This document shows positions 10,401-26,652 of a DNA stretch of 27,776 bases, in pieces; the first letter of the stretch is position 1, and the number at the start of each line of letters is the position of its first letter. The DNA lies in IMG/VR virus record IMGVR_UViG_3300034375_007596, positions 1-27,776 of that record; one strand, given 5' to 3'. The translations under genes were made by a program, and so were the position numbers. Below the pieces are notes generated by a model. That model was not told where the DNA came from and searched no databases. It saw nothing but the letters and a program-made list of their open reading frames with translations. Origin of the DNA: a virus.

Positions 10401-10708
10401 AGAACGCCAATGTAGTAGCGACAAGTGATTACCGTCTACTGGTTGGCTTCGTTGGGGACGAGGACGCATACGCCGTCGTTGTGGACCCCTTGTTTACTCA
10501 AGGCGCGATGGCGACCATCAACATGAACTCAATAGCAGGACTCAACGGATCTATCCCGTTGCAGGGCAAGGGGGATTCTATGGGTGTGTTCGACAGCACA
10601 GCAAGGACGTGTGGCGTTCAGTTGGTCGGAACGGGTGCAGCCCCATCTGGAGCAGGTCAAATCATGACCATCACGATCCATTATCACAACGCGGGGCAGA
10701 CGATATGA
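4418..10708 (+). CDS. Tail-tip receptor-binding protein, gpI-gpJ fusion
   Basis: This 2096-residue central tail-tip protein is about twice the length of lambda gpJ (1132 aa). Residues 1-90 look like the small gpI N-terminal domain. A poly-Gly linker (92-98) and two hydrophobic segments (about 103-125 and 152-171) follow, then the family entry 'EEPSPTYSLQTQGNVARRR' near 185. The body carries J-type hub and tip-attachment domains. Two inserted beta modules (about 885-965 and 1690-1760; patterns such as 'HNMAVGQKFTLAGL' and 'INTGDWLYISDL') resemble the small beta inserts often labelled FCCH-like in phage tail proteins. A carbohydrate-binding-like sandwich covers about 1307-1467 (pattern 'W..V....G.GCVKL..AYAKAGN...W.PLEITYD...LLDSSLGW'). 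An FN3-like segment starts near 1583 ('RVIDVSWAPVNGAFAYDVDY'). The last 170 residues form a beta-rich C-terminal domain. The protein forms the tail tip and probably binds the primary receptor. ATG 4418 is the first start in frame. The stop overlaps the next start as ATGA. Confidence 0.9.
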   Translation: MDETRVLSPPVKTRLVVGGNLHPDLDGGAYYVVPGTTIRGFMEQQGIDEFQAPTMCAMGAEHDNWILREEWDSRVIEENTILIDARIVAPYGGGGGGGSQAGMIVGMLFLAIVAPYLGAIAGAAVSGGSVGAAATSFGATAATLGVASTATTTFAVTKALVTGLVLVGGSYGLQKIFENKIRRPEEPSPTYSLQTQGNVARRRSPLPSLTGYLRIVPDLLEEPFIAFEGQDRINTASGGQRGRTGRSVQYVFQTCYLSQGYVDKDSIAPFIGGRTLKGLTEADIEIRHPGEGLTLIPAAFDTVSTGNLPLQGPNEYQLISTVDELLTDIEDNDVGQIFPRAQKSELVVHSAVNDTVIAGEDGPAGENSTTIYFSGIQAHTTVSPTTPVGYGPPPDYTVTWPATNGTDAATLRDKFANGGFTGLTFFLGDMYDYSASTSNLIKTNGPIPGSGAQDPHWNNRDDQGRQDGERTDYKTQWGILSRSPGETVHSTGASGRLAKYFREPGNLELRSDIAIYEWLDSNHNDLIGANKLSKHNHWTSPYVENLGMRLSHPQRLRHIVNSGVDATSGRPWIKVTPRFDQGVQLRWEESNSPAGDDQAGPGFSLGHIKKDWTAPLRMDRSTGKAQTVNIDIVGGTLVGRSDGGSVYRWGVGVSVQVRQIDPSTGNPLSHWYEAETIFHEWKHQNNPQPANLTVALGRQRSGTILGSARGVVASHWSTHPIWGPASEVNPLGITINADVLNVPKSPVMGSAGKLESVVKNNEYWANQPTGAVWTGPQYLEVRVRRTSPTGKDPYEQDGVYDEDTNVADDRIQWAGLRFGLTEVDGPARSYNHGTVAEVKIRASANLNSQNSRELSFVCHRLLPTYGQAVYVDVGGTRTPVALAVDPLKTLVGSKRVVLAFTDHNMAVGQKFTLAGLSNLKDATGAVGTISPNGTHTITELPSKDSIAFEIATAAVYTEDDDIQAANPTLDVGPDAGGSSGTIISVSHDGVSGYAHNPGYKIKPDPNNASAVHRTIPADPVTGDTVAVGDTITPALIGQFSLDYYDVDPQYFTKTESGVWHALDMLRDPFYGAGIPDSQIDLDTWAHYASIHGGKALTPSGGGPAVAKLPDTHAFYFDQRGTWLDSVAQTLRVHRLKLLNSFGKWTVVRDEPQTLPVAAFSSRNIARESLQVSYSLNRTDLPKWVQVEFFNKNTWNMDTVDGYLEDQNPNETNIDTVRLPGIQTYDHAWREARYLTADARYRRTQVKFSTEYEGLIPLPTQVVTVNHPIPGWGQAGDVIAYDDNGGSGPYTITTDQILDWRGTPIDHNGAFDTATDIAAWIAVGPSTTIVAETSDAHLGEGCVKLTKSSTNTTFGIEHVSIPITAGPLTAAEGAGLYFVAYAKAGNAQTVGKKVRYKLDPDGTGNNAVTGGYATLSEDYWTPLEITYDIAGGDVTQIDSLVVEMDPTDVANGDVFLLDSSLGWTLGGEHTFSFKGDEGQPAPDPGFASTIRIPGDDTKIRSNTDLESATGLNGVINTDADGRDRTQFMFGRTLSFNKKCVVSGIDPRNAELIDVDTIVDDARVHTVDGTGSLPPTTTEVLESTPDVPVLDFVTASLRGPVNGRVIDVSWAPVNGAFAYDVDYCTSDYLLYKTSATGGGTFDDGDQLVCIPEVRTIGSVWGETVSFLARNFALGGTNPNEWCSLVFPSSAVVPINTGDWLYISDLPDAGGLTANQFTGYFQVTVTTSSGFIFVSWRAATSFTTTHTNIPAWGASYAVDTGFRGTVFTDQTKSPPSQIDKEFRFYHNEDAASLDTNRRIGPVPKSQDAFLNIEDGTVESFPFSSIFAGSGDYSFLIVVEDPISTLQWISIGDEVTGTTLSAPIVFDLPSDVDDIVRVRARALGRTFGPYKEIIVRSSESLLEGDKPTVTSPPVGGTYNTYDSTLEFEPLRGDKLYGHRLGVEVNKTNSSVYNFSPIGLSQAICREVAITSSNYNTFIQFTDLPVGAIITSVDVYTNVKNANVVATSDYRLLVGFVGDEDAYAVVVDPLFTQGAMATINMNSIAGLNGSIPLQGKGDSMGVFDSTARTCGVQLVGTGAAPSGAGQIMTITIHYHNAGQTI
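10705..10708 (+). promoter_or_regulatory. ATGA start-stop overlap, J-like gene to tailspike
   Basis: The TGA of the J-like gene (10706-10708) overlaps the ATG of the tailspike (10705-10707). No strong ribosome site is present, so initiation probably depends on ribosomes finishing the J-like gene. The overlap fixes the tailspike start and puts the signal peptide at the exact N-terminus. Confidence 0.75.
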
Positions 10709-10761
10709 AGAAGTTAGTTACGGCGATTGCGCTACTGTTGTGGGCGTCCCAGGCATGGGCA
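10705..10761 (+). other. Sec signal peptide of the tailspike
   Basis: Nineteen codons encode MKKLVTAIALLLWASQAWA, followed by Gln-Gln. Two lysines, an uninterrupted hydrophobic core and small residues at -3 and -1 (A-W-A) match a type I signal peptide. There is no lipobox Cys at +1. Confidence 0.85.
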
Positions 10762-13293
10762 CAGCAGAGCACTCAGGCGGGCGGCACAGGGTGTTCTACG
10801 CCGGCCACTGCTGCACGGCTCGGGGTAATGTCCCCGACGATTGGTACGGTCTGTACGATTACAGACGGGGCATCGGCTACGGACTGCACGACGGGTGGCG
10901 GGACGGACAAGGTGACGTGTTTCTACTGCGGAGCGGCGTGGCAGTCGTCTTCGTGCGGTGGAGCGAGTGGCGGGAATGTGCTGGACATTCGGGATTACGG
11001 GGCCGTGTGCGATGGCTCCACTGACGCCGCATCAAGCATTAACTCTGCCATTACGGCATCGGAGGAAGGCGATATTATCTTTTTCCCCGGATGCACCAAT
11101 GCGTGGCGTATAGGGTCTACTATTTCGCTGCCATCTACGCACTCGATAACGATCATGGGTGGTGGCTCGGCCATTGATGCCACAGTCGGAGTATCCGATG
11201 TCTTTGCTATTGAAGATGTTGGTCAGGCGGTGAACAGTCCGCAGCACGTCATTGAAGGGCTGCGGATATACAATGCGGGAACACAGGGGCAGGGCAACGC
11301 CATCCGCATCGAAGATTCAAACAGCCAGACTCTCCGTAATCTTTACATCCAGGATTTCGACACAGGCATCAAACTGCAATTAGGCGGAGGCTTCACGGAG
11401 GCGACGAAGATAGAGGATGTCCGTATCCATAACTGCGATAACGGCATTTCGTTTGAAAAAATCAGCGGCACATCATCAAGTTTTGCATCAACTCATCTTG
11501 AGCACGTCGAGATTGTTGCTGCGGCGGCGGCTGCGACACAACCAATTCTATTGGGAGTGTCGGCAGGGACCAGCATATATCGCTCGCGGTTCGATAACGT
11601 GATTTTGTTCCCCTCGCAGACCGATTCGATTGGGTTTTACTGTGAAGGAACGCTTCGATCTCTAACTGGTTCCCTGCACGTCGAAAGCACTAACGTCAGT
11701 GCTACCGGAAATACAGGTATCGAACTGGCAACGGGGTGCTCCTTGATGACTGTCAATCTCGACGTTGATATACGCGGAACTATCGCCAACGACTTTGTTA
11801 ATGGCAGCGGGAGTGGAGTTTCTGGCTTGAGAGTACAGAATATCGCAAACTATCCCGGTGCCGAGATCCGCGACGCTTCGCAGAAGCAATTTTTCTCGGG
11901 TTCGATTTGCGACGATGATTTATCGACGTGCCGGTATCGCAAGACGATGAGCACCGCCGGGGTTCTTCGTCACGAGTTCAATGAGGCGGAGCCGATGGAG
12001 TTTATCGACCTCACCACTGAGGATATTGCGCCGGTTCGGATGAAAGACATTGGGAATGAATGCACTGCGGCCTCTGATGACTTGACGCCCTCCGTTGCCG
12101 ATTGCACGCAAATCAATCTGGCGACCTACGGCGCAGGGTCAGTCGTAACAGACTTCGATGATGGAATCAGCGGTCAGACGCTCTTGGTTCGTCTTCAGAG
12201 CACAGACGTTACGGTGGCTTCAAGCGCGAGTATCCGTTTGAACAATGGTGAGGACTTCACCTGTTCCAATGCCCATTGCGTTCTGTATCTGTGGCTGGAT
12301 GGGAATTCCTGGAGAGAAATATCTAGGACGGACAATACCAGTGGCACATACGTGAGTAAGACTGGCGATACGATGAGCGGGGTTCTCAATATCGACACCA
12401 CGGTAGCCAACGCCCTACAGGCTTATAGTAATACAGGTGGGAACGCGACATACGCTCGTCTTGGCTGCGATGGAGATGGAGTAGATGGGACGTTCTGCAA
12501 TATGGAGCTTACGGCAGACAACAGCGTTGGCACCGAGGTGGGTGTGGCTCAGATCAGGCATACGGCGATGGACACCGACAACGGTTCACTGGACGGCAGG
12601 GTAGACGTCCTCGTCAAAAGTGGGGGTAGTTATAACGGACTACAGCAATGGAGCAGTAACGCGGGTGGAACCAAGACCGTTATCATCAATCCCTCAAACT
12701 TGGACGTAGACTTCCGAGTATATGGCGCTCCCAGTAACACTATTTTTGCCTGCGACGGGAGCACCGAAGTGTGTGAGTTCCTGAACCCGCCCACGGGTCT
12801 GTCTGCAACTACCATGACGAAGTTCCAGACAGGGGCACCCAGTTTTAATGGAACATCAACGCAAGAGACGGCAGGATCGGCGTATTGTGTGAAGTGGTTT
12901 GTCCCCGGTCGCATTGCCGATGCAGACACGATGGATTTTGTTCTCGAAATTGGGACTGATGTATCCGAAGTTGTAGAGTTGGGGACATACAGTGCGGACG
13001 GACAGACTCAGTATTTTGAATGCACAGTGCCAACGAGCAGTGGAACTGGCAGTCTGAACTGCTCGAATGATAACGCTACGCCTGCGGCCATTCCGCCAGG
13101 AGACGTTTGGATGTGTGTGACCACAAGCACTGGGAATGTGGCATTTGTCAGTATGCACGCAAGTACGTATCAGGGGCGATACTGCACACACACCGAAACT
13201 GTTACGTCGGGCGAACTCCCTGACACTTTGACGAGTCCGTCGTGTACATGGACCAACCTGCTGCCAGCCTATTTGGGCCTGAGTGACGAGTAA
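10705..13293 (+). CDS. Beta-helix tailspike or fibre with Sec signal peptide
   Basis: This 862-residue protein starts at the ATG of the ATGA overlap with the J-like gene. An in-frame ATG at 10609 would add 32 polar residues (MWRSVGRNG...) lying antiparallel to no motif and would bury the signal peptide, so it is rejected. Residues 1-19 form a textbook Sec signal (MKK, hydrophobic LVTAIALLLW, AWA before the cut). Residues 26-80 form a four-Cys module also present in the giant fibre. From about 91, 'NVLDIRDYGAVCDGSTDA' is the entry motif of pectate-lyase-3 right-handed beta-helix proteins, and the helix runs to about 400. Near 549 'YVSKTGDTMSG' is a typical phage fibre junction repeat, followed by a beta-rich C-terminal region. 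I counted 27 cysteines (3.1%). The likely role is adsorption or depolymerisation of a surface polysaccharide. No catalytic residues can be assigned by eye. Confidence 0.86.
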   Translation: MKKLVTAIALLLWASQAWAQQSTQAGGTGCSTPATAARLGVMSPTIGTVCTITDGASATDCTTGGGTDKVTCFYCGAAWQSSSCGGASGGNVLDIRDYGAVCDGSTDAASSINSAITASEEGDIIFFPGCTNAWRIGSTISLPSTHSITIMGGGSAIDATVGVSDVFAIEDVGQAVNSPQHVIEGLRIYNAGTQGQGNAIRIEDSNSQTLRNLYIQDFDTGIKLQLGGGFTEATKIEDVRIHNCDNGISFEKISGTSSSFASTHLEHVEIVAAAAAATQPILLGVSAGTSIYRSRFDNVILFPSQTDSIGFYCEGTLRSLTGSLHVESTNVSATGNTGIELATGCSLMTVNLDVDIRGTIANDFVNGSGSGVSGLRVQNIANYPGAEIRDASQKQFFSGSICDDDLSTCRYRKTMSTAGVLRHEFNEAEPMEFIDLTTEDIAPVRMKDIGNECTAASDDLTPSVADCTQINLATYGAGSVVTDFDDGISGQTLLVRLQSTDVTVASSASIRLNNGEDFTCSNAHCVLYLWLDGNSWREISRTDNTSGTYVSKTGDTMSGVLNIDTTVANALQAYSNTGGNATYARLGCDGDGVDGTFCNMELTADNSVGTEVGVAQIRHTAMDTDNGSLDGRVDVLVKSGGSYNGLQQWSSNAGGTKTVIINPSNLDVDFRVYGAPSNTIFACDGSTEVCEFLNPPTGLSATTMTKFQTGAPSFNGTSTQETAGSAYCVKWFVPGRIADADTMDFVLEIGTDVSEVVELGTYSADGQTQYFECTVPTSSGTGSLNCSNDNATPAAIPPGDVWMCVTTSTGNVAFVSMHASTYQGRYCTHTETVTSGELPDTLTSPSCTWTNLLPAYLGLSDE
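10780..10944 (+). repeat. Four-Cys N-terminal module, tailspike copy
   Basis: Tailspike residues 26-80 align with fibre residues 27-90 (13733-13924): 'GGTGCSTP' with 'GGTNCSGP', 'TVCTITD' with 'TECVITD', then a 'DC' pair, a 'VTC'/'AKC' pair and a final Trp-Gln. Four cysteines coincide (C30/C31, C50/C55, C61/C66, C72/C79). It is probably a shared docking or folding module placed right after signal cleavage. Confidence 0.75.
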
Positions 13294-13297
13294 GGAG
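13292..13297 (+). promoter_or_regulatory. Ribosome binding site AAGGAG
   Basis: AAGGAG overlaps the tailspike stop and lies 7 bases before the ATG of the 14-codon ORF at 13305. From the coiled-coil start at 13337 it is 39 bases away, too far to serve that gene directly. Confidence 0.6.
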
Positions 13298-13304
13298 ATT
13301 GACG

Positions 13305-13349
13305 ATGAGAGCGTTTTATTTGGCTGAGGTACTGATATGCCGACGATGA
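13305..13349 (+). CDS. Possible 14-codon leader peptide ORF
   Basis: Directly after the tailspike stop lies AAGGAG (13292-13297), the strongest ribosome site near here, 7 bases before an ATG at 13305. The frame encodes only MRAFYLAEVLICRR and stops with TGA at 13347-13349. That stop overlaps, as ATGA, the second in-frame Met (13346) of the coiled-coil gene. This geometry is typical of a short leader ORF that delivers ribosomes to the next gene by coupling. It may equally be a chance ORF with the AAGGAG serving the ATG at 13337 from too far away. The peptide matches nothing I recognise. Confidence 0.35.
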   Translation: MRAFYLAEVLICRR

Positions 13350-13582
13350 GATCACGAGTTACCAATCTTGAAGCCGACGTGGAGGAACTGCATCGCCGTC
13401 TCCGCGCCGCCGAATTGAAGTCCTTGGTCCTTGACCAGCAGGTGGAGACTCTTGAGAGGTTGCTGACGGAGTTCCGGCGTGCCCTGTACCCGGCGTTCCG
13501 GCGTGGGTTCCCCGAGGGGCAGGAGTTGGAGAGGCTGTTCCTGCTCGTGGAGGGCTTGGACCTCGGTTACGACGAGGACTAG
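13337..13582 (+). CDS. Small coiled-coil protein between two fibre genes
   Basis: This is an 81-residue protein of unknown function. Residues 8-46 form an almost perfect heptad coiled coil with V8, L11, V15, L18, L22, A25, S29, L32, V36, L39, L43 and F46 at the a/d positions. A second amphipathic stretch and an acidic tail (GLDLGYDED) follow. It has no cysteine and no signal peptide, unlike its neighbours on both sides, so if the fibres are exported this protein stays in the cytoplasm. TGAGGT at 13325-13330 is a fair ribosome site for the ATG at 13337. Met4 at 13346 is an alternative start, coupled by ATGA to the leader ORF. Candidate roles are a fibre trimerisation or assembly factor, or a small structural linker; the sequence does not decide between them. 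Confidence 0.72.
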   Translation: MPTMRSRVTNLEADVEELHRRLRAAELKSLVLDQQVETLERLLTEFRRALYPAFRRGFPEGQELERLFLLVEGLDLGYDED

Positions 13583-13654
13583 CCCCAGAACGCCCCTCAG
13601 AAGCCCGTAAGCGGCTGCTAGCGCGTCCATGCAGTTAAGCGGTAACATGACTCC

Positions 13655-13714
13655 ATGTTGCTCAGAATATTGGCTGTCGCGGCGTTTTTGGCGGGTTCTA
13701 CGCCCGCTGTAGCT
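13655..13714 (+). other. Sec signal peptide of the giant fibre
   Basis: Twenty codons encode a positively charged n-region with Arg4, a hydrophobic core (ILAVAAFLAG) and the A-V-A cut site before Gln-Leu-Thr. No lipobox is present, so release rather than lipid anchoring is expected. Confidence 0.85.
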
Positions 13715-16700
13715 CAACTGACAAGTGAGCAGGGCGGGACCAACTGTTCCGGGCCTGTTACCAAGTCCCAACTCTCGACATTTGCGGCACGGTCGAACCG
13801 TGCAGGCGATACCGAGTGCGTGATTACGGATGCCCTGAACTCTCAGGACTGCGATCCGACGGCGAGCACTGGGAGCGCCATTGCCAAATGCGTTATCACC
13901 AGTGGGACGAATAACACTTGGCAGGCGATTGGGTCGGAGGTGACTGCCGGCGTGTCGAGCGTGACCGGCGGGACTGATATCACCTGTACGCCGACCAGTG
14001 GGGATGTGACCTGTAACGCGGACGGTACTCTCGCCCGCGACACCGAGGTTCCCAGCCTGGAGCAAGACCCGGTTTTCGGGGAGATGGACACGGAGACTGA
14101 GTTAGAGACTCAGTTGACCAATGTTGCCGACGTTTTCACCGATAATGACGGGGCATTGACGGACGACGATCTGACCGACGATTCGGTCGGGGAGTTGCAG
14201 GACGTGACCCTGAGCGGGACGCCTCAGAACCGCGATGTACTGGTCTACGACGGGGTTTCCGCCTTTGTGGACCGTCTGTTGGTCGAGGCGGACATTTCGG
14301 ACCTTTCCCATACGACAGACACCGGGCCAGCGGTCGATTGCCCTACAGCGACTCATGTCCAACTCGGGGATGGCTCGTGCGTGGACCCGGCAACGCAGGC
14401 GGAACTTGATACCCACGAGGGGCAGAACGCGAATGTCGCGCACGGCGAGGTAGACCCGGCGGCGTGTACCAACGCGGCGTGTACGGTCAGCCTTGCCAAT
14501 GACACGGTTACAGGGGGCACGCAGAACCGCTGTGCCCGATTCGACGGCTCCGGCAACCTCGTCTCTGCCGGTGGGGATTGCAGTTCCGGCGACACCGACA
14601 CCACTTGCCTCGATACCGGGGTAAACTGCCTGTTCGCGGGCGCCTCCGCTGAGGGCGGGGCAGCCACATCTGCTGCCGCTCTGGAGAACGATGCCCTCGA
14701 CTCGATGGCTGAGATCGCTACGACCCTGAAGGTTCGGGCGGATGACACGGACACCAAACTCCTGACCACCAGCATCTCCCCGCCTGCTTCTAACACCTGC
14801 CTGGAAATAGACTCAAATGGCTCTGTAGTGCTTGCTAGCGCCGCCTGCGGCACTGGGAGCGGCGGTACCCCAGGGACGGACACTGTGGGCACAGATGAAC
14901 TGGATGACGGCGCAAACAGCCCTACGGCGGGGTACGCAGTTATCGTCGATAGTGGGACGACTGGGTTTGAATATGTCGATCCCGCCACTCAGGCAGAACT
15001 CGATACGCATACGGGCAACACGGACATCCACGTAGACCATACGGCGGTATCGGTCACGGCTGGAGATGGTCTGACCGGGGGCGGGGATATTTCGGCTACG
15101 CGAAACTTCGCTGTCGGGGCGGGGACTGGAATTGCGGTCAACGCGAACGACGTGCAGTTCGATTACGCGGATGCGGGCGCATCACCGGCTCTCGGGGCAG
15201 ACGAGTGTGTGTTCTCGAACGAGGGCACGAGTGACGGCGGATGGGTCTGCGAGGGTCCGGTAGCCGACTCAACGGAGACACGTTTCCGCGTAACCGAATC
15301 CACCACGACGGACAAAATCATCACATTCCCCGACGCCACCGGAGAAGTGACTCTGCTCGGGCAGTTCATTGATGACGGTGAACTTACCGAGACATATTGC
15401 CAGCAGGACAAGACGAATTGCGCTACGTGGACGCTGGGAACAGATACCACGGCGGAACAAGACCCTGCTGCCTGTACGAACGCAAACTGCACCGTAGATA
15501 TTACGGGGGACACGGTTACAGGCGGTACTGCAAGTCGATGCGCTCGTTTTGACGGTTCTGGCACTCTTGTGGCCGCTGGTGGGGATTGTTCGTCGGGAGA
15601 CACAACTATCGCCAATACGACGTGCGATACCGATACGTGTACGCTCGACGACGATACGATAGTCCTCCTCGATGCCAATGGTGCAGCCCCCACCACGGAT
15701 GGCGAGATCAAATACGACCGAACTACTGAGCGTATTGAGGTCGGTGACGGCGCAAGCGGAACTGTAGAGTTTTATTCGGGTGCCCACACGGTTGATACCG
15801 ACACCACCTGTCTTGATGCAGGAGTGACCTGTAACTTCGCGGGATCGTCCTCGGAGGGCGGTGCAGCGACCTCTGCCGCAGGGTTGGAGGCGGATGCGCT
15901 TGATGCGATGACTGAGATCGCTACAAGCCTTAAAGTCCGCGCAGATGATACCGATACGAAGCTCCTTACCACCAGCGTTGCGGCACCTGGGTCAGCGACC
16001 TGTTTGGAGATGGACACGAATGGGTCTGTAGTCCTATCCAGTGGTGCGTGTGGCGTGGCAGGATCGGTCGGAACCGATGTTGTTGGTACGGATGAATTGG
16101 ATGATGGTGCGAATACTCCTACGGCGGGCTACGCGGTTATTGTAGACAGTGGAACCACTGCCTTTGAGTACGTAGATCCCGCGACTCAAGCGGAATTGAA
16201 CACCCACACCGGACAAAACGCCAATGTAGCGCATGGAGAAATCGACCCGGACGCTTGTACGAACGCTAACTGCACAGTCGATCTCTCTGGGGATACAGTC
16301 ACGGGCGGAACCGCGAGCAAGTGTGCTCGATTCGATGGTTCTGGAAACCTTGTTGCTGCATCCGGCGACTGTTCTGCTGGGGACACTGATACGACTCTTT
16401 CAGGCAGCGCAGCGGGAGGGGATCTCTCGGGCACCTATCCGAATCCGTCCGTAAACAACGATTCTCATAACCACGGCGATTCCACCGTGGCCAACAACCT
16501 GACAATCGCCGGCGGGACTATCGGAACCAGTGCAATCACCCTGAACGCGGGTACCGCTCCTACCACAGATGGCTTGATCGAGTGGGATACGACGGATGAC
16601 CGCATCAAGGTTGGTAATGATGGCAATGCAACCCTTGAGTTTTATCCCGGTGCTCACACCGTAGATACGACCCTGGCGGGAACCTCCGCAGGAGGGGATC

Positions 16701-19700
16701 TCACTGGAACGTATCCCAATCCCACCATTGCAGGAGATGCAGTTGCGCTCGGCACCGACACCACGGGCAATTACGTGGCTACCGTAGCCCCTGGAGCGGG
16801 AAGTAAGGTAACGGTCACGGGGTCTGGATCAGAAGGCGCAGCAGTCACGCTTGGGTTGTCCACGTTGACCATTGGTACAGACACTACCGCAGAACTGGAC
16901 CCGGATGCGTGTTCCAATACCAACTGCACGGTGGACATAACTGGAGATACAGTCACGGGCGGTACGGCGAGCCGGTGTGCCCGGTTTGATGGTAGTGGCA
17001 ACTTGGTCGCGGCGGGTGGGGACTGCTCATCCGGCGACACGACAATCGCCAACACCACTTGCGATACCGATACCTGTACCCTCGATGACGATACTATCGT
17101 CCTATTGGACGCGGATGGTGCTGCTCCTACCGATAATGGCGAGATAAAGTACGACCGAACCACCGAGAGGATCGAAGTAGGAAACGGAAGCGGGACTGTA
17201 GAGTTCTACTCTGGCAGTCATACTGTAGATACGACTTGTCTTGATGGCTCAGTAAATTGTCTTTTTGCTGCATCTTCTACTGAAGGGGGTGCAGCGACCA
17301 CAGTGACGGTCGCAACCTCAACTGACACAACATCCTCGATTGCATTTTTTGAGAGTGCAACGGGGAGTCTCGGCGCGAAGACCGACGCGGATCTTACCTA
17401 CGATGCCACGAATAATGTACTTACAGCCGGATCGTTTGCGGGAGATTTAACCGGAACCGCAGACTTCGCTGACAGTCTTTCTAATAACGGCGCGAATTGT
17501 AATGCCGGGGAAATCCCCCTTGGGGTGGATAAGGTCGGGGCTGTCGAAGGGTGCTATGAGCCTGCCTTCACGGACGTTACGGGCAGCGTGACGGATGCCC
17601 AAGTGCCGAATGACATCACTATTGACTTGGCAACAAATGCAACCAATGTCACAGTCACAGCTTCATCAGATACGACAGCTTCGATTGCTTTCTTTGATAG
17701 TGCGACTGGCAACCAGGGAGCAAGAACAGACGCGGAGCTTACCTACAATGCAACGACTAACGTACTGACTGCTACAGAGTTTGCGGGATCGTTTACTGGT
17801 ACAGCGGATTACGCGGATAACCTTTCCTTAGATCCTGCGGATTGTGGGGCGAATAAGTTTGCGAACACGATTGGGCAGAACGGAGATTTGTCGTGTGTTG
17901 CTTTAGTCGATGCTGACGTTCCGAACGACATCACTATTGATCTTGCGACAAAAGCCAGCACGGTTACAGTTGCGGATATTGGAAGCGATACAACTTCCTT
18001 TGTTGCCCTGACAACGGACGCAACTGGGGATCTGTCGGTAGATACCGATGCAGGACTGACTTACGACGCTTCCACCGATAATCTCTCTGCAACCACGTTC
18101 ACCGGGAATCTCTCAGGGAACGTAACTGGTAACGTCACAGGCGATGTAAACGGTAATGCTTCAACTGCTACCGCTCTAGCAAGTGATCCGGCTAATTGTG
18201 TCACTGCGACTCATTTTGCTGTAGGGGTTACAGCGGCGGGGGTTGCAGAGTGTGAAGCAATTGTTGATGACGATATTCCAAACGACATCACTATTGACGA
18301 AGCCACTCTCGCTTCAACAGTTACGGTAGCGGACATTGGCGGGGATACGACTTCTTTCGTCGCGTTAACCACCGATGCGACGGGTTCACTGTCCGTGGAT
18401 ACCGACGCGGGCATCACCTACAACGCCACGTCTAACGTACTCACCGCCACCGGGTTTGCAGGTAATCTCACTGGAACAGCCGACTTCGCGGATAGACTGT
18501 CTCTTGACCCAACTGACTGTGCAGCAGGGGAGTTTGCCAACGCAATCGACAAGGAAGGGGATCTGACCTGCGCTACGGTCGGGCTTGATACCCTGTCGGA
18601 CGTGAACATCACCGGGCCACTCCAGAACCGGGATGCGTTGATGTACGATTCTACCGCGACTGAGTGGGTAGACCGCCCCCTCGTAGAAGCCGATATCAGC
18701 GATCTGAGCCACTTCACGAACTCGGACGAGACTGACCCCGTATTCAGCGCAGAAACGTCCCTGAGCGCGCTGGAAACGCGCATAGGGACCACTCTGGTGC
18801 CCACATCCCAGAAGGGAGTAGCCAATGGCGTGGCTTCCTTGGATGGGTCCGCAAAGGTGCCGGTTTCACAGCTACCTGACTCAGTGGTTGGGTCGGTAAA
18901 GTTTGCCGGCACCTGGAACGCCAACACGAACAGTCCAAATCTGACCACAACAGGGTGCCAGTCCTCTCCGGGAGATGAAGGCAACTACTACGTCGTCTCG
19001 ACAGCGGGTTCTACGAATCTCGACGGTGAGACGCAGTGGGAGGTGGGTGACTGGGCGATCTGCGAAGATGACGGTGGATTGGCTTGGGCACGAGTTGGAG
19101 CAGGCTCCCGAGTAACCAGCGTACACGGTCGGGTTGGAGCCGTGACCGCGAATACCTCGGACTACGATGCGGCACAGATTGACAACACTGCTGCCGGTAA
19201 CATCGAGGCGACTGATGTTCAGGCGGCTCTGAACGAGTTGGATTCGGAGAAACTTGGAGCGACCGCTGCGGCAGGTGGTGATTTGGACGGAAACTATCCA
19301 AATCCGACTATCAAAGCCGACGCGGTGGCACTCGGTACCGACACGACGGGTGACTACGTTGCGACTATTGCCGATGCCGGAAACGGGAAAGTCACGGTAG
19401 CGAACTCGGGTGGGGAAACAGCAGCAGTTACGCTCGACATTGCTGATGTCTTTGTACTGAACACTGGGGACACGATTGATGGCACCACGTCCACCAATCT
19501 GACCATTACGGGCGGTAATGCTCAGTCTGGAAATATCTTGACTGTTGAGAACGATGGGAACACATCAATCCTCGCTGTCACGACAAGCGCGGGTAATGCT
19601 TCGGTTCAACTTCCGAATGATGCGATAGGAGACGCAGAGGTCGCAAATGCGTTGACCATTGCCGCTGGAACGATTGGAACATCCGACATTACTCTCAAAG

Positions 19701-22700
19701 CCGGAACGGCCCCGACGGCAGATGGGCGGATTGAATGGGATACCACGGCAGAGACAATCAAGGTCGGGCATAACAACACAGCCACGTTAGAGTTTCATTC
19801 GGGGGCGCACTTTACGAACGGAGACGAGACTGACCCAGTTTTCTCGGCTATGAACACGGAGACTAAGTTAGAGACTCAGATCAACGTAGATGACGTGTTC
19901 ACCAACAATGATGGCGCACTCGATGACGATGATTTGACGGATGACACCATCGGTACCCTCTCGGACGTAACCGTTACGGGTCCGCTGGCCTCTGGGGATG
20001 TTCTTATCCATAACGGGTCGGCTTTTGTTGATCGCCCACTGACAGCAGCGGACATTGCCAGTGGAACCCTTGCTCACGAAAGAGGTGGGCTTGAGGCAGA
20101 TGTTTCGGCGTATAACGGCCTTGTTCGTATCTCGGGCGGTACAACGACCAACATCACCGATCTGTCGGGTCTGAACACGGCTCTTGGGTCGAGCATCGCT
20201 GATGGTGCCCACAATGCCGACCAGAACTTGTTTGAGACATTTGCTACGCCTTCGGGCACCAACCCGGTAGCGGACAGCACGACGGATACGTTGACCTTCG
20301 CGGCGGGCACCGGGATTACCATCAGCGGTGATAGTGGGACCGATACCATCACCCTGACCCCCACTTTGGGCGACAGTATCTCTGCATCAGAGATGGCTGA
20401 TGCCGACCACGGAGATGTTGCGTGGGACAATGGTGCAGCGGAAGTCCAGAGCATGACCACTTCTGCCATCGGTGCGGATACCAGCGTGTCGATTGCGATG
20501 TTTGGCGAGCCGAGCGGAACAGTTCAGACCATCCACACCGATCCAGGGTTGGTCTACGACGCGACCAATAACGTACTCACCGCCACGGATCACGTTACGG
20601 TTGGCGATACCGAGTATCAGATGGCGGTCAACGGCAACGCTACAACCTCCCGTCTTGCCATCGCTACCGATGACGGCGAAACCAATGTGGCTGAGATCGA
20701 AGCTCACCGACACGAGGACAGCGTTGCTGCGCGTGGAGCCGTTATGTATGGAGGCAGGAGCCGAGGCTCGATTGCCACCCCCGCTGCCGTAGTGTCGGGA
20801 GACAGGCTTCTGACAATCTACGCGCTTGGACATGACGGCACGGATGAGGCTATCAGCGCAGAAATCGACTTCACGGTCGGGGACACTCCGGGCAACAACG
20901 ATATGCCCGGCACAATCGAACTGAAAACGAGCGCAGACGGCTCTCAATCGCCCACTACGCGCCTTACGATTGATGAGGCTGGGGTATCTACCTTCTCGGG
21001 TAATGTGGTCATATCGGCCACTGGAAACGATTCTCTGCAACTGGCTACGGGAGCCATCTCGGACGCCGAAGTGGCAGATAACCTCACGATTGCCGGCGGG
21101 ACGATTGGTACTTCTGCAATCACCCTGGTTCAGAGCGCGACTCCGGCCCCTACTGCTGAGGGAGTTATTGAGTGGGACACCGATGACGACCACATCTACG
21201 TAGGTAAAACCGTAGGGGCAGCGGTGTTCGTGCCCACCGAGGATGTTTCTGGTGACATAACGATGACGACCGCTGGCGTGACTACTATTCAAGCCAACGC
21301 GGTTGCACTCGGAACAGACACGACAGGCAACTACGTGGCGAATGTTACTGGAGCAACCGGACGCATCACCGTCAGTGGTACGGCTGGCGAGGGATGGGCA
21401 CCCGAGATTAATATTACTGCGGACAGCCTCGTGGAAGCGGATCTTGCTGCTACCAATGCCCCAAGCGGGAGTGGGGATGTTCTTACGTATGACGGAACAG
21501 CCGGGTTCACTTGGGCCACGCAGAGCAGTCTCAGCGTAGGTAGTGCTACCTCAGCCACGAACGCGACCAACGTAGCAGTGGACAATGCGTCTACTGACTC
21601 TACGACGTTCGTGGCTTTCGTAGAGACAGACTCATCATCAAATCAACAGATTCACATCGACACGGCACTGGCCTACGACCCGACGACTGATAACCTCTCG
21701 GCCACCACGTTCACAGGTGCCTTGAGCGGGAACGCTACGACTGCCTCGACTGCTAGTGCAGGTGATAGCCCAACGGACTTCTTTAGTGAGGGGGCGATTG
21801 TTGCACAGGACGACAAGGCGGTGACGGACCTGGAGGGCACAGGCCTGAGCATTTCAGCGGGTACGCTCAATTCTACTCTCGCTATCGAAGAAGGAGACGC
21901 TTCCGCAGGTGCAGCGAGCATCTTGGATTTCGCTAGTACGTTTGCGTCAGTATCCTGCACTGCCGGTGAGTGTGATGTCACTACTGGGACGGGAGTGATG
22001 ACGACTTCAACGGATGTCTTGGAATCCCAGATCCCGACAATCGTTGCGACTGATAATGACAATCTCTGCGTAGGTGCAGCTAGTGATTGGTGCATCCAGC
22101 ACGACACTACGAGAGGTGCTGATACAGGAGAGGTTCAGGACGATACCTACTTTGTAGGCAAGTTGTTCGCAGAGAATGATTGGCAGTTACAGGATCTTGC
22201 CAACGCAGACATCAACCAAGGCTATCGAAATAATAATAACCTAACGGAAGATGGAAAAATCTCCACTAGCATCAGTCCTAGTGCAAGCCTTACCGACTCA
22301 AGCCTGATGGAGCACATTGAAGTCGATTACTCGCTGGCAACCCTACCTATGCACGTTGCAAGGCGCGTAGCAGTCGCGCAAACATCTAGTGGCACTGCAA
22401 ACAGGAACTTGGTTATTTACTCGGCTGGAACCGGGACTAACTCAAACGCTACTGGTGTCTTGGTTGTTGATTATCTTTGCACAGCGACTCTCCAAGGCAC
22501 GACAGTTGGTGAATATTTTGTCGAAAAAGGCGCGTTTGCTTTTCAGAGAAATGCTAATGGCGCCTTCTCCGGGACGCCCACGCAGTTATACGTAGATTCT
22601 CACACATCAACCGCGAGTGGGTACTCGTTTAATGTCTCTGGTTATACTGCATTTAGCGCGGCTGCTCTCCAAGCCAACGATACTACGTCGGGAGCAGCAG

Positions 22701-22750
22701 GAACCGTTTCGTGGGTTTGTACCCTAGAGGAAATATTTAATGCGGGCTAA
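13655..22750 (+). CDS. Giant modular tail fibre with signal peptide
   Basis: This 3031-residue protein (9.1 kb) is the largest gene in the window. Residues 1-20 (MLLRILAVAAFLAGSTPAVA) are a classic Sec signal with an A-V-A cut site. Residues 27-90 share a four-Cys module with the tailspike. The rest is made of beta-rich repeat modules familiar from phage fibres: 'VTAGDGLTGGGDIS' near 465, 'GGDLxGxYPNP' three times, 'TDAxLTYxATxNVLTA..FxGxxTG' about six times, 'PVSQLPDSVVGSVKFAGTWN' near 1730, and 'VHGRVGAVTANTSDYDAAQI' near 1825. Cysteines (about 58) cluster in residues 30-1810 and again after 2765, with a Cys-free stretch of about 950 residues between. The last 230 residues (from about 'DNDNLCVGAASDWC') are non-repetitive and probably form the tip. 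The start has only a weak ribosome site and was chosen because the signal peptide begins there. The stop overlaps the next gene by 11 bases. Confidence 0.9.
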   Translation: MLLRILAVAAFLAGSTPAVAQLTSEQGGTNCSGPVTKSQLSTFAARSNRAGDTECVITDALNSQDCDPTASTGSAIAKCVITSGTNNTWQAIGSEVTAGVSSVTGGTDITCTPTSGDVTCNADGTLARDTEVPSLEQDPVFGEMDTETELETQLTNVADVFTDNDGALTDDDLTDDSVGELQDVTLSGTPQNRDVLVYDGVSAFVDRLLVEADISDLSHTTDTGPAVDCPTATHVQLGDGSCVDPATQAELDTHEGQNANVAHGEVDPAACTNAACTVSLANDTVTGGTQNRCARFDGSGNLVSAGGDCSSGDTDTTCLDTGVNCLFAGASAEGGAATSAAALENDALDSMAEIATTLKVRADDTDTKLLTTSISPPASNTCLEIDSNGSVVLASAACGTGSGGTPGTDTVGTDELDDGANSPTAGYAVIVDSGTTGFEYVDPATQAELDTHTGNTDIHVDHTAVSVTAGDGLTGGGDISATRNFAVGAGTGIAVNANDVQFDYADAGASPALGADECVFSNEGTSDGGWVCEGPVADSTETRFRVTESTTTDKIITFPDATGEVTLLGQFIDDGELTETYCQQDKTNCATWTLGTDTTAEQDPAACTNANCTVDITGDTVTGGTASRCARFDGSGTLVAAGGDCSSGDTTIANTTCDTDTCTLDDDTIVLLDANGAAPTTDGEIKYDRTTERIEVGDGASGTVEFYSGAHTVDTDTTCLDAGVTCNFAGSSSEGGAATSAAGLEADALDAMTEIATSLKVRADDTDTKLLTTSVAAPGSATCLEMDTNGSVVLSSGACGVAGSVGTDVVGTDELDDGANTPTAGYAVIVDSGTTAFEYVDPATQAELNTHTGQNANVAHGEIDPDACTNANCTVDLSGDTVTGGTASKCARFDGSGNLVAASGDCSAGDTDTTLSGSAAGGDLSGTYPNPSVNNDSHNHGDSTVANNLTIAGGTIGTSAITLNAGTAPTTDGLIEWDTTDDRIKVGNDGNATLEFYPGAHTVDTTLAGTSAGGDLTGTYPNPTIAGDAVALGTDTTGNYVATVAPGAGSKVTVTGSGSEGAAVTLGLSTLTIGTDTTAELDPDACSNTNCTVDITGDTVTGGTASRCARFDGSGNLVAAGGDCSSGDTTIANTTCDTDTCTLDDDTIVLLDADGAAPTDNGEIKYDRTTERIEVGNGSGTVEFYSGSHTVDTTCLDGSVNCLFAASSTEGGAATTVTVATSTDTTSSIAFFESATGSLGAKTDADLTYDATNNVLTAGSFAGDLTGTADFADSLSNNGANCNAGEIPLGVDKVGAVEGCYEPAFTDVTGSVTDAQVPNDITIDLATNATNVTVTASSDTTASIAFFDSATGNQGARTDAELTYNATTNVLTATEFAGSFTGTADYADNLSLDPADCGANKFANTIGQNGDLSCVALVDADVPNDITIDLATKASTVTVADIGSDTTSFVALTTDATGDLSVDTDAGLTYDASTDNLSATTFTGNLSGNVTGNVTGDVNGNASTATALASDPANCVTATHFAVGVTAAGVAECEAIVDDDIPNDITIDEATLASTVTVADIGGDTTSFVALTTDATGSLSVDTDAGITYNATSNVLTATGFAGNLTGTADFADRLSLDPTDCAAGEFANAIDKEGDLTCATVGLDTLSDVNITGPLQNRDALMYDSTATEWVDRPLVEADISDLSHFTNSDETDPVFSAETSLSALETRIGTTLVPTSQKGVANGVASLDGSAKVPVSQLPDSVVGSVKFAGTWNANTNSPNLTTTGCQSSPGDEGNYYVVSTAGSTNLDGETQWEVGDWAICEDDGGLAWARVGAGSRVTSVHGRVGAVTANTSDYDAAQIDNTAAGNIEATDVQAALNELDSEKLGATAAAGGDLDGNYPNPTIKADAVALGTDTTGDYVATIADAGNGKVTVANSGGETAAVTLDIADVFVLNTGDTIDGTTSTNLTITGGNAQSGNILTVENDGNTSILAVTTSAGNASVQLPNDAIGDAEVANALTIAAGTIGTSDITLKAGTAPTADGRIEWDTTAETIKVGHNNTATLEFHSGAHFTNGDETDPVFSAMNTETKLETQINVDDVFTNNDGALDDDDLTDDTIGTLSDVTVTGPLASGDVLIHNGSAFVDRPLTAADIASGTLAHERGGLEADVSAYNGLVRISGGTTTNITDLSGLNTALGSSIADGAHNADQNLFETFATPSGTNPVADSTTDTLTFAAGTGITISGDSGTDTITLTPTLGDSISASEMADADHGDVAWDNGAAEVQSMTTSAIGADTSVSIAMFGEPSGTVQTIHTDPGLVYDATNNVLTATDHVTVGDTEYQMAVNGNATTSRLAIATDDGETNVAEIEAHRHEDSVAARGAVMYGGRSRGSIATPAAVVSGDRLLTIYALGHDGTDEAISAEIDFTVGDTPGNNDMPGTIELKTSADGSQSPTTRLTIDEAGVSTFSGNVVISATGNDSLQLATGAISDAEVADNLTIAGGTIGTSAITLVQSATPAPTAEGVIEWDTDDDHIYVGKTVGAAVFVPTEDVSGDITMTTAGVTTIQANAVALGTDTTGNYVANVTGATGRITVSGTAGEGWAPEINITADSLVEADLAATNAPSGSGDVLTYDGTAGFTWATQSSLSVGSATSATNATNVAVDNASTDSTTFVAFVETDSSSNQQIHIDTALAYDPTTDNLSATTFTGALSGNATTASTASAGDSPTDFFSEGAIVAQDDKAVTDLEGTGLSISAGTLNSTLAIEEGDASAGAASILDFASTFASVSCTAGECDVTTGTGVMTTSTDVLESQIPTIVATDNDNLCVGAASDWCIQHDTTRGADTGEVQDDTYFVGKLFAENDWQLQDLANADINQGYRNNNNLTEDGKISTSISPSASLTDSSLMEHIEVDYSLATLPMHVARRVAVAQTSSGTANRNLVIYSAGTGTNSNATGVLVVDYLCTATLQGTTVGEYFVEKGAFAFQRNANGAFSGTPTQLYVDSHTSTASGYSFNVSGYTAFSAAALQANDTTSGAAGTVSWVCTLEEIFNAG
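13733..13924 (+). repeat. Four-Cys N-terminal module, giant fibre copy
   Basis: This is the second copy of the module described for 10780-10944. The tailspike has a shorter loop between the last two cysteines. DNA identity is low although the protein pattern is clear. Confidence 0.75.
14453..17038 (+). repeat. Fibre repeat family of 47 residues with paired Cys
   Basis: Four copies of exactly 47 codons lie at 14453-14593, 15461-15601, 16244-16384 and 16898-17038. Consensus: DPxACxNxxCTV, then DTVTGGT, CARFDGSG, LVxAxGDCSxGD. Each copy has four conserved cysteines, consistent with internal disulfides. Confidence 0.85.
14597..17299 (+). repeat. Fibre repeat family 'TTCLD...EGGAAT'
   Basis: Two long copies, 14597-15016 and 15800-16213, share 'EIATxLKVRADDTDTKLLTTS', 'TCLExDxNGSVVL', 'GTDELDDGAN' and 'EYVDPATQAEL'. 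A truncated copy at 17228-17299 stops after 'EGGAAT', where another repeat family takes over. This truncation marks a module junction. Confidence 0.82.
15686..21230 (+). repeat. Fibre repeat family 'APTxDGxIxxDxTxxxIxVG'
   Basis: Five copies: 15686-15787, 16556-16657, 17123-17221, 19709-19810 and 21146-21230, each about 34 residues. The first four end in '(E)FxxGAH/SH', and the last diverges after 'HIYVG'. Copies three and one share the longer upstream segment 'CDTDTCTLDDDTIVLLDA'. Confidence 0.82.
16415..19306 (+). repeat. Fibre motif 'GGDLxGxYPNP', three copies
   Basis: Copies at 16415-16447, 16691-16723 and 19274-19306. The second and third are followed by 'DAVALGTDTTGxYVAT'. That follow-on also recurs alone at about 21296-21340. 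This motif is widespread in phage fibres and bacterial surface proteins. Confidence 0.8.
17321..21770 (+). repeat. Fibre repeat family 'TDAxLTYxATxNVLTA..FxG'
   Basis: Four close copies begin at 17321, 17666, 17984 and 18341, each about 50 residues and separated by 'VPNDITIDLAT'-type spacers. Two more divergent copies lie near 20477-20600 and 21593-21750. This is the familiar beta-strand repeat of many phage fibres; the four tandem copies have a spacing of about 320-360 bases. Confidence 0.82.
22726..22731 (+). promoter_or_regulatory. Ribosome binding site AGAGGA for the SGNH gene
   Basis: AGAGGA lies within the last codons of the giant fibre gene, 8 bases before ATG 22740. It supports that start, which is also where the signal peptide begins. 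Confidence 0.7.
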
Positions 22751-22802
22751 TTTGAACGCGCTTGCGTTACTACTGTTGCTAGTAGCCGGTGATAGTTACG
22801 CG
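22740..22802 (+). other. Sec signal peptide of the SGNH protein
   Basis: Twenty-one codons encode Met-Arg, a strong Leu-rich core (ALALLLLLVAG) and S-Y-A before Glu-Thr-Phe. This is the third signal peptide in the receptor-binding block. It is not homologous in sequence to the other two beyond the general pattern. Confidence 0.82.
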
Positions 22803-25508
22803 GAGACTTTCATTTGGGGGAATGAGATATGCGGCGGGCTATCTACGTCGGAGTGGCTTACTGGGCAGGTGTTTTCTGGAAGTAGTAGCCCTAGGCCGAC
22901 TGTTAGTACCACGACGTTCGGTGATGACACGAATACCTGTTCGATTTATTACGACGTTCCAACGCCATCCGCTTCCCGCTACCTGAAGCGCAGCGACGGG
23001 ATCAGTTCCGAAAGTACAATATGTGCTTACGCCAAATTGAACGTGGCTACGCTACCCACCTCTGCCAGTCAACGACGACAAGTTCTCCGATTTGATGATG
23101 GAAGCGGAAATCCTACGGCCATCTTAGTCGTTGAGCGACTTACGTCATCAACATATCGCGTACGGGCATACTACGAGGACGATGGCGCGGAGTGTCAGAC
23201 ATCAACCAATGACGGGACCGAATGTTCGGATGCGGCAACTGACTGCGATGAAGAAAACGCAGGCGAAGCGTCCTGCGTTGACGGCAATTCGGCTTATGCA
23301 TCATTTGGTCCACTGAATACAAATCAATGGTACGCGGTCGGTTTAGAGCAAGACAATACCGCTGGCGATGCAGGGGATGTATCTGTTTCGATGTATGTGG
23401 GAGAGCCGGGAACCGTTTATTTGCGCGGTCAGCAAACACGGCCACAAGGATCGTGTTCCGGCGGAACAAACGCGGGGTATGCGTGCGGATCAGATGCCGA
23501 TTGTCCGAGCAGCACTTGTAACACTACGGACGTGAGAACAGTCAATGATGTTTACCTCGGAACATACTCAGACGGCCAGACGGACGCTTGGCAGTATTAT
23601 CTGGACGATATAGTCATCACAGACAGTTCATGCAGTGTAGCGAACGCTAATTACAGGATCGCTTCGTTAGTGCCGGATTCGGACATCACAGTTAATTGGT
23701 CGAATACAACAAGCTGTAATGCGACAGGGCACTATGATTGCGTCAATGACGCTGCCTCTGGGGCATTGGATGATGAAACATCGTATATCTTTACGAACAC
23801 GAATAACGACGATGAGACGCTAGGCTTTACCAATCTTAGCACTACAGACACCTGCACAAGCGGGACTTGTTCTTTGTCGAATATTTCATGCGACACGGAT
23901 TCAGACTGCATGAGCAGTACCCCTGCAATCCCATTGGTGACTCATATCGGGTCGTGGAGAGATAATACGAACGCTTCATCTGGGTCCGTTAAGGACGTGA
24001 CGTGTCAACTCAAAGTTGGAAGCAACTTGTCCTCCGGCGTAACTTACGCGGTTGATGAGCACGGCGATACCGAGTTCCAATTAGGGTGCTTTGAGGCGGT
24101 TGCTACCGCCCCTGATGCTACGTCGTGGGACTTCACCGATATTAACGCATTGGAGTGGAAAGGCGTTCACACGCGCTCAGGGTCGGTCGGACAGGTCCGA
24201 GGAACCGCAGTATCAGCGGAAGCGTTGATACTGCTTCCTGAGCCACTAGTACCGAATGTCTTGCCTGATAGAAACGGCGACGGATTCAAGACCGTCGGAT
24301 TCATCGGAAACAGTCGTTTGAACAATGTCATGTCCGGTGGGTTCGTAGATCCATTGATTGAACCAGAGTATTTATATGATTGCGCTCAGGGCGGTCGCAC
24401 CATAGGCGACCTGGAGCACAATTTAACAAACATCATTAACGGATCGGCAAGTGGGCATTTGTCCTGTTCTTCCCGGCGAGGAGACTTAAACAAGAAACTC
24501 GATGTTGCCTTGGTCATGATGGGGATAAATACGATAAAGCCCCTCATTATTGCTAGTCCGGTTGGAGGGGTTGTTTGTTCTCAAAACGCAGATTGCCCCC
24601 CTGACTCCGCGTGTAATTACGAAGGGCCATGCAGTTCAGGGACTTGTGCTAACGCCTCGGCCACTCTTGCCTGCACGGTGAACTCGGACTGCGGATACTG
24701 CACATCAGGAAACTATAGTTACTGCTACGACGATGGTGGCTCCGACGAAGGTAATTCCTGCTATTGTCCGAAAAGTTCTGGTTGGCGTCATGACCCGGCT
24801 GTGTTCGAAGGGTATTGCATAAACCCCGGCGACTTTGGCACTTCTTGTACTAGTCACTTCGATTGCGGATGCTCTACCGATGCTGATTGCTTTGGCGGAA
24901 CTACGTGTAGTAACGGCACTTGTAGCTTCAGTTTCTTCGCTGAGGGGGCTACTTGTCTGGCGGGGCACACGCTACCTACATCTCAATGTTTCACCGGATG
25001 TCTAAATGCCCCCGGATGCAGTTCCGGTGTGTGCATGGCTGCTGCCTCACAGGCCACCGTGGAAGACGCCTTTGCGGGCATTGCATCGTCAGTAGACTCC
25101 TCATCGGTCGAAATCGTCTTGGTCGCAACCCCTACGGCTCATGTCAGGGGAGATAAGCTCAATTCATCCCCACGGGCCGGCTGTTGGACATGGCATAATC
25201 ATCAATTAAGCCAAATCCGCTCATACCTGAAGTCATTATCCTCCGTAGATGCTGACTATCACTGGGTCGATGCTTGGTCGCATTGGAAACAATGTTGTCC
25301 CAACGGTGACACCAACAACTGTTTATTTGATGGCATCCACCCGAATGATGCCGGTGCAGAGTGCGTCGCGGAGATCATGCTAGAGTGTCTGGAGAACAAA
25401 TACGGCACTGCGAATGGTGTCTGTACTGCAAGTGTTTGTTCCCAAGGCTCGATTGGGGATGTTTGTAGCACTAACTCTGACTGCGATACTTATAGATGTG
25501 CGTTTTGA
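22740..25508 (+). CDS. Secreted lectin-like/SGNH hydrolase, Cys-rich
   Basis: This 922-residue protein starts inside the end of the giant fibre gene, 8 bases after AGAGGA (22726-22731). A Sec signal (MRAN, hydrophobic ALALLLLLVAG, DSYA before the cut) comes first. Residues about 30-310 look like a concanavalin/LamG-type sandwich ('QWYAVGLEQ', 'YLDDIVITDS'), followed by a second beta domain to about 500. From about 515 an SGNH hydrolase is visible: block I 'GFIGNSRL' with candidate nucleophile Ser525, block II Gly551/552 in 'CAQGGRTI', block III 'MMGINT' with Asn597, and block V 'DGIHPNDAG' with Asp864 and His867. Between blocks III and V lies a Cys-rich insert of some 160 residues. About 56 Cys (6%) occur, many in 'xSDxDCxxxxC' units, repeated once more at the C-terminus. 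Known phage SGNH proteins deacetylate host polysaccharide (G7C gp63.1), so esterase action on a surface glycan is likely. Confidence 0.82.
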   Translation: MRANLNALALLLLLVAGDSYAETFIWGNEICGGLSTSEWLTGQVFSGSSSPRPTVSTTTFGDDTNTCSIYYDVPTPSASRYLKRSDGISSESTICAYAKLNVATLPTSASQRRQVLRFDDGSGNPTAILVVERLTSSTYRVRAYYEDDGAECQTSTNDGTECSDAATDCDEENAGEASCVDGNSAYASFGPLNTNQWYAVGLEQDNTAGDAGDVSVSMYVGEPGTVYLRGQQTRPQGSCSGGTNAGYACGSDADCPSSTCNTTDVRTVNDVYLGTYSDGQTDAWQYYLDDIVITDSSCSVANANYRIASLVPDSDITVNWSNTTSCNATGHYDCVNDAASGALDDETSYIFTNTNNDDETLGFTNLSTTDTCTSGTCSLSNISCDTDSDCMSSTPAIPLVTHIGSWRDNTNASSGSVKDVTCQLKVGSNLSSGVTYAVDEHGDTEFQLGCFEAVATAPDATSWDFTDINALEWKGVHTRSGSVGQVRGTAVSAEALILLPEPLVPNVLPDRNGDGFKTVGFIGNSRLNNVMSGGFVDPLIEPEYLYDCAQGGRTIGDLEHNLTNIINGSASGHLSCSSRRGDLNKKLDVALVMMGINTIKPLIIASPVGGVVCSQNADCPPDSACNYEGPCSSGTCANASATLACTVNSDCGYCTSGNYSYCYDDGGSDEGNSCYCPKSSGWRHDPAVFEGYCINPGDFGTSCTSHFDCGCSTDADCFGGTTCSNGTCSFSFFAEGATCLAGHTLPTSQCFTGCLNAPGCSSGVCMAAASQATVEDAFAGIASSVDSSSVEIVLVATPTAHVRGDKLNSSPRAGCWTWHNHQLSQIRSYLKSLSSVDADYHWVDAWSHWKQCCPNGDTNNCLFDGIHPNDAGAECVAEIMLECLENKYGTANGVCTASVCSQGSIGDVCSTNSDCDTYRCAF
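24567..25038 (+). other. Cys-rich insert within the SGNH hydrolase
   Basis: About 157 codons between SGNH blocks III and V encode roughly 23 cysteines in units such as 'CSQNADCPPDSACN', 'CTVNSDCGYC' and 'CSTDADCFGGTTCSNGTC'. Similar 'DxDC' units occur earlier in the protein (near 23478-23520) and at its C-terminus. They resemble small disulfide-knot repeats of extracellular bacterial proteins. Confidence 0.75.
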
Positions 25509-26651: not shown

Positions 26652-26652
26652 T

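Follow-up and report, generated by a model that had tools for sequence, protein, structure and literature searches.

By the usual teaching, tailed phages assemble in the cytoplasm, and the question raised by this locus is why three large proteins encoded after the tail tip gene of an uncultured tailed phage begin with what look like Sec signal peptides, and where such proteins would fold and meet the particle. The window, meaning the whole stretch of DNA analysed here, is the complete IMG/VR record IMGVR_UViG_3300034375_007596, a linear fragment of 27,776 bases.

Gene order and feature assignment

The window contains, in order, the end of a tape-measure gene, small tail genes (DUF1833, NlpC/P60), the tail tip gene J and a spike gene, followed by a coiled-coil-like ORF, a giant fibre gene, a gene for an SGNH-like protein, and adenine methyltransferase pieces (Table 1). 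J was matched by tblastn to J/tail-fibre proteins of BcepGomr, Achromobacter and Pseudomonas phages, at about 26–31% identity among the best matches listed. Residues 103–121 of J form a strongly hydrophobic segment (MIVGMLFLAIVAPYLGAIA) after a Gly-rich stretch. Assignment as tailspike and tail fibre was based on the gene adjoining J, the PF12708 match in the spike, and the TGTYPNP-type repeats of the fibre, the latter giving no Pfam match. The third protein was read as SGNH-like from motifs picked out by eye (GNSR, MMGIN, DGIHP); it matched PHROG_2448 (unknown function, 7e-6), and no Pfam match or PDB sequence match was obtained for it. A muralytic domain was sought in all three proteins, with no Pfam match. 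AlphaFold models computed without alignment had pLDDT values too low for use (33.5 for the SGNH region, 38.6 for the mature spike). At 26004–27672, two adjacent ORFs resemble an adenine methyltransferase in two parts: motif I (FLEPACGNGNF) is in the first, and the second begins at the catalytic NPPY motif (PF07669, 1.7e-23). They look like a split enzyme or a frameshift.

Table 1. Coordinates of the tail tip gene, the three predicted exported proteins and their parts in the window
Feature	Coordinates	Strand	Remarks
J-type central tail tip protein, 2096 aa	4418..10708	+	PF13550 Phage-tail_3, 4e-13; no signal peptide; 10 Cys
Tailspike-like protein, 862 aa	10705..13293	+	Pectate-lyase-like part, PF12708, 1.2e-8; 27 Cys (3.1%)
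Spike, predicted Sec signal peptide MKKLVTAIALLLWASQAWA, cleavage before QQ	10705..10761	+	Score 20.9; identical in L002 and L004
Spike, post-signal Cys domain	10762..10956	+	Common to fibre, alignment z=7.0
Coiled-coil-like ORF between spike and fibre, 81 aa	13337..13582	+	From translation; signal score -22.8; no Cys
Giant repetitive fibre, 3031 aa	13655..22750	+	TGTYPNP-type shaft repeats; 58 Cys, 29 close pairs
Giant fibre, predicted Sec signal peptide MLLRILAVAAFLAGSTPAVA, cleavage before QL	13655..13714	+	Score 13.2
Giant fibre, post-signal Cys domain	13715..13930	+	Paralogous to the post-signal domain of the spike
SGNH-like protein, Cys-rich, 922 aa	22740..25508	+	56 Cys (6.1%); SGNH by motif only
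SGNH-like protein, predicted Sec signal peptide MRANLNALALLLLLVAGDSYA, cleavage before ET	22740..22802	+	Score 17.2; AGAGGA site upstream

Signal peptides of the three proteins

N-termini were scored with a simple home-made model trained on 41 E. coli signal peptides, in which real signals reached a leave-one-out median of 23, with the 5th percentile at 10.5. A null set of 7020 internal windows from the window's own proteins gave a 99.9th percentile of 9.6 and a maximum of 11.7, and the best spurious ORF across the six frames scored 4.4. The three N-termini were found where the initial annotation had placed them (10705, 13655 and 22740), with scores of 20.9, 13.2 and 17.2, all above the null maximum, and the remaining assigned genes scored -11 or lower (the tape-measure gene, with its start cut off, was left unscored there). 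Chance, against which the initial annotation had argued, is excluded. Each of the three proteins has recognisable n-, h- and c-regions, an AXA-type cleavage site and a fixed start, so far as these can be read from sequence, and it is well supported that the signal peptides are genuine-looking and score like real ones. The assignment of starts held for the spike, where ATGA overlaps the stop of J, and for the SGNH-like protein, which has an AGAGGA site and overlaps the fibre stop, but not entirely for the fibre, where no clear Shine-Dalgarno sequence is present. The three cases had also been described as consecutive; all three stand, but the signal-less 81-aa ORF separates spike from fibre.

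A hydrophobic N-terminus left uncleaved, anchoring the fibre in the virion or the host envelope, had been offered as one meaning of these segments. All three are indeed hydrophobic, and uncleaved signals of the SAR type are known in phage endolysins (PMC6116005), but the SPase I sites are clear and mostly followed by Gln at +1, the mature parts are Cys-rich, and no 19-residue transmembrane-like segment is present in the spike, fibre or SGNH-like protein, which speaks for cleavage of the signal and against anchoring in a membrane. Anchoring is disfavoured on these grounds, and is the least probable of the readings weighed here.

Cysteine content and pairing

Close Cys pairs are needed by exported proteins, but rarely by tail proteins that fold in the reducing cytoplasm. 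All three signal-bearing proteins exceed their cytoplasmic neighbours in Cys content, with 27 residues (3.1%) in the spike, 58 (1.9%) in the fibre and 56 (6.1%) in the SGNH-like protein, against 0 of 1033 in the tape-measure protein, 10 of 2096 in J and 0–2.1% in the other tail proteins of the window. Every Cys of the fibre (58/58) falls into one of 29 close pairs, spaced mostly 5, 7 or 16–18 residues apart, and none of 20000 random placements was as tight (P<5e-5); since the fibre repeats are duplicated, some of the pairs depend on one another, yet the roughly 12 distinct pair types are all paired. The same statistic was significant in the fibre only (spike p=0.15; SGNH-like protein p=0.97). 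This apparent disulfide signature, absent from the initial annotation, is the strongest independent support for export, and together with the signal peptides makes export of the three proteins a well-supported prediction from two independent sequence features.

Post-signal domain and exchange of the spike middle

The sequence after the cleavage site is common to the spike and the fibre (GGTxCS...TxCxITD...DC), and the two post-signal domains align with z=7.0 (p<0.001 of 1000 shuffles). Close relatives of the window were found in contigs L002 and L004, and the signal-coding DNA is identical among them, making a test of synonymous against non-synonymous change uninformative there. In L004, the spike keeps the signal, the post-signal domain and the C-terminal part, and has shaft-like sequence in place of the pectate-lyase-like middle. 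A kept N-terminus with an exchanged middle is the behaviour of the particle-binding N-termini of tailspikes, and the L004 pattern, with ends kept and middle exchanged, is as expected for such an N-terminus. The last part of J has diverged between the window (4418–10708) and L004 (7308–13631), while the adjoining spike signal is identical; the junction between the end of J and the start of the spike is read as a recombination boundary at the gene start.

The main rival explanation bears on this domain. It holds that the proteins are exported and never enter virions; in the surroundings of an infected cell or lysogen they would serve as free depolymerases, decoys or coats, for example by clearing capsule or blocking superinfection. 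The signals look real, the pectate-lyase-like and SGNH-like parts could act as free enzymes, and an exported phage protein encoded next to J is known in lambda Lom (PMC12309495), which is signal-bearing and lies between J and the tail fibre genes, although Lom is an outer-membrane beta-barrel expressed in lysogens and not a fibre. A free enzyme is hard to square, however, with a domain that follows the signal in both spike and fibre and survives the exchange of the middle, and with the coupling of the spike start to J. We regard this reading as unlikely.

Recurrence in viral contigs

A scan of viral contigs for the Cys repeat recovered L013, a 96.7-kb contig unrelated to the window, with a terminase (TerL, PHROG 3e-10) and a Mu-type portal (PF06074, 6e-34). 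It encodes two fibre-like proteins with a signal, a related Cys domain (p=0.003 for the spike post-signal domain against the L013 protein) and shaft repeats; one more of its proteins also carries a signal. For the wider survey, two shaft motifs were searched in viral contigs, giving 208 fibre-shaft ORFs with complete starts, and a score cut-off of 6 was applied. Seventeen of the 208 scored at least 6, and about 12 (~6%) were judged genuine on reading, leaving ~94% without a signal; this agrees with the earlier statement that signals on tail fibres are unusual. The window's fibre and spike proteins depart from the usual state of fibres, which carry no signal peptide, a habit and not a strict definition. 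A Cys content of at least 1.5% was found in 4 of 17 signal-scoring shaft ORFs vs 6 of 179 others (Fisher p=0.006). Signal-bearing genes adjoin head and connector genes in L084 and L128, and L084 has three of them close together; IMG/VR contigs may contain bacterial sequence, so that single contig cases are weak. PF03237 terminase searches of the signal-bearing contigs gave no match and were uninformative, and PHROGs were used instead.

Further searches returned nothing related: tblastn against 50,697 phage records gave no match for the spike N-terminus, fibre pieces, the SGNH-like protein, the L013 fibre or the L076 fibre; the motif DALDAxDCT was absent from the viral contigs scanned; a scan of viral contigs for the SGNH-like protein found no relative; and a profile of the Cys repeat unit (window and L013) had no convincing match among 237 sampled fibre-shaft ORFs.

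Bacteria, too, have fibre-like shaft proteins with signals, apparently located on the cell surface, which counts against the export and late joining of phage fibres and raises the reading that the window's proteins are host-cell surface adhesins captured from bacterial genes, sharing with phages only the shaft repeat. GTNTGDQ shaft repeats were seen in exported bacterial proteins (L018–L058) of Bacteroidota, Elusimicrobiota, Nomurabacteria, Colwellbacteria and others, and about half of the 29 bacterial loci of this type that were checked (Bacteroidota, Elusimicrobiota, candidate phyla, others) have a signal-like N-terminus followed by phage-like shaft repeats. Unlike the window's proteins, these are cellular genes whose products are Cys-poor (0–0.9%) and have other N-terminal domains; the phage genes sit within tail or packaging gene clusters, and no further transmembrane segment occurs in the window's three proteins. 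An adhesin origin is judged improbable.

Isolated phages of Tunturiibacter

The same combination was found in isolated phages of Acidobacteriota (PMC11924767), in which Tunturi 1, 2 and 4, infecting Tunturiibacter, carry signals on 4, 4 and 2 large tail-region proteins, respectively. As in the window, large genes lie in a run in the tail region and combine Sec signals with high Cys and a fibre- or spike-like placement, although no sequence similarity to the three proteins of the window was detectable. The signal-bearing proteins of Tunturi 1 are gp12, gp13, gp14 ('tail spike') and gp17 ('virion structural protein'), the last two annotated by homology only, and the same four are signal-bearing in Tunturi 2; in Tunturi 4 they are gp113 and gp114, the gp111 fibre having no signal. 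The terminase, portal, head and gp11 tail proteins of Tunturi 1 score -11 or lower, and its 71 scored CDS include as further signals two lipoprotein-like ones and some small ORFs. The lipoprotein-like signals (SGC, TGC) lie at 21530–21913 and 35745–36947 of Tunturi 1 (L307), and one of the two proteins is annotated as tail protein gp78. The main text of the genome paper contains neither 'signal peptide' nor 'mass spectrometry' (PMC11924767), and a search for virion proteomics on these phages found none, which counts against the presence of the proteins in particles. The +1 residue of the signal-bearing phage fibres is mostly Gln (Tunturi L304, L307, L308 and L309; contigs L084, L092, L103 and L128), which differs from the E. 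coli training set and may point to host lineages favouring +1 Gln.

In L092, the protein with the signal has matches in gp12 of Tunturi 1 and 2 and, through the same domain, in tail proteins of coliphage ep3 and Serratia phages. In L092 and Tunturi gp12, this tail-fibre N-terminal domain comes with a signal and an added Cys; the homologous domain of the ep3 and Serratia phage MyoSmar fibres, which are conventional cytoplasmic fibres, has no signal and no Cys, Ala replacing that residue. The tail-fibre N-terminal domain of these homologues, and the annotations of Tunturi gp14 and gp17 (again, by homology only), are further points against secreted free enzymes.

In Tunturi 3 and 5, of which the first 50 kb each were covered, the tail genes checked have no signal. 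Tunturi 3 grows on the same strain as Tunturi 1 and 2, and its checked tail genes lack both the signal and high Cys, so that the trait looks phage-borne and not host-borne; imposition of the trait by the host was rejected for the same reason. This bears on the reading in which the fibres remain cytoplasmic, the segments merely resemble signals, and the host cytoplasm is unusual in tolerating or oxidising Cys. Some organisms do have cytoplasmic disulfides, and the signal scores come from a home-made predictor only. Signal and Cys content are nevertheless coupled within phages of one host genus: for the window and the Tunturi phages taken together, median Cys content is 2.18% in proteins with a signal vs 0.48% in 39 others (P=3e-6), and the coupling holds in the Tunturi phages alone (P=6e-5). 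A host-wide oxidising cytoplasm does not explain tail genes without either trait in Tunturi 3, and retention in the cytoplasm is considered very improbable.

Proposed export and late joining

The reading that we prefer, and hold to be about evenly balanced between right and wrong, is that all three proteins act as phage fibres for receptor binding or depolymerisation, and are exported, folded in the periplasm and joined to tails at lysis. Late in infection, the three fibres would be translated from the tail operon and pass the host Sec translocon, where signal peptidase I would cut, exposing the shared N-terminal docking domain; they would fold in the oxidising periplasm, the paired Cys forming disulfides, while heads and tails are built in the cytoplasm. 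Lysis would then mix both pools, and the fibres would dock on tail tips via the shared domain. Among the meanings first proposed for the signals, the one with the best fit is the completion of virions with fibres added outside the cell, since the signal precedes a domain that is common to spike and fibre and kept across the exchange, and in L092 and the Tunturi phages precedes an ep3-type tail-fibre N-terminal domain; disulfide formation, docking, its timing and the presence of the proteins in virions are the parts that we infer. A precedent for late joining is the attachment of T4 long tail fibres to fiberless particles (PMC3004832). Several points count against this route: docking after lysis would have to overcome dilution, a fibre chain of 3000 residues is a demanding substrate for Sec export, and the Cys number of the spike is odd (27).

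Phage proteins that use Sec are already known, namely secretory and SAR endolysins and Lom-like morons. The secretory (fOg44 Lys44) and SAR endolysins are likewise late phage proteins using host Sec (PMC6116005), but are lysis enzymes and not fibres, and the window's proteins lack a muralytic domain. Signal peptides on tail fibres were not found reported in the open-access literature searched, which is weak evidence of novelty with most subscription journals outside it. The 'signal peptides' of PVC were rejected as a precedent, being effector-loading tags and a different thing.

More broadly, and a little more tentatively, a minority of tailed phages from several environments and hosts, including cultivable phages of Acidobacteriota, may build their particles in two compartments, with heads and tails made in the cytoplasm and Sec-exported, disulfide-stapled fibres made in the periplasm and joined at lysis. 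If this is true, the particle is completed at or after lysis, the timing of lysis and the breakdown of the envelope become assembly steps, and fibres of co-infecting phages could swap in the lysate. Exported disulfide-stapled fibres would serve as stable binding reagents. The presence of the trait in the isolated phages Tunturi 1, 2 and 4, and its absence from the checked tail genes of Tunturi 3, make the two-compartment reading directly testable.
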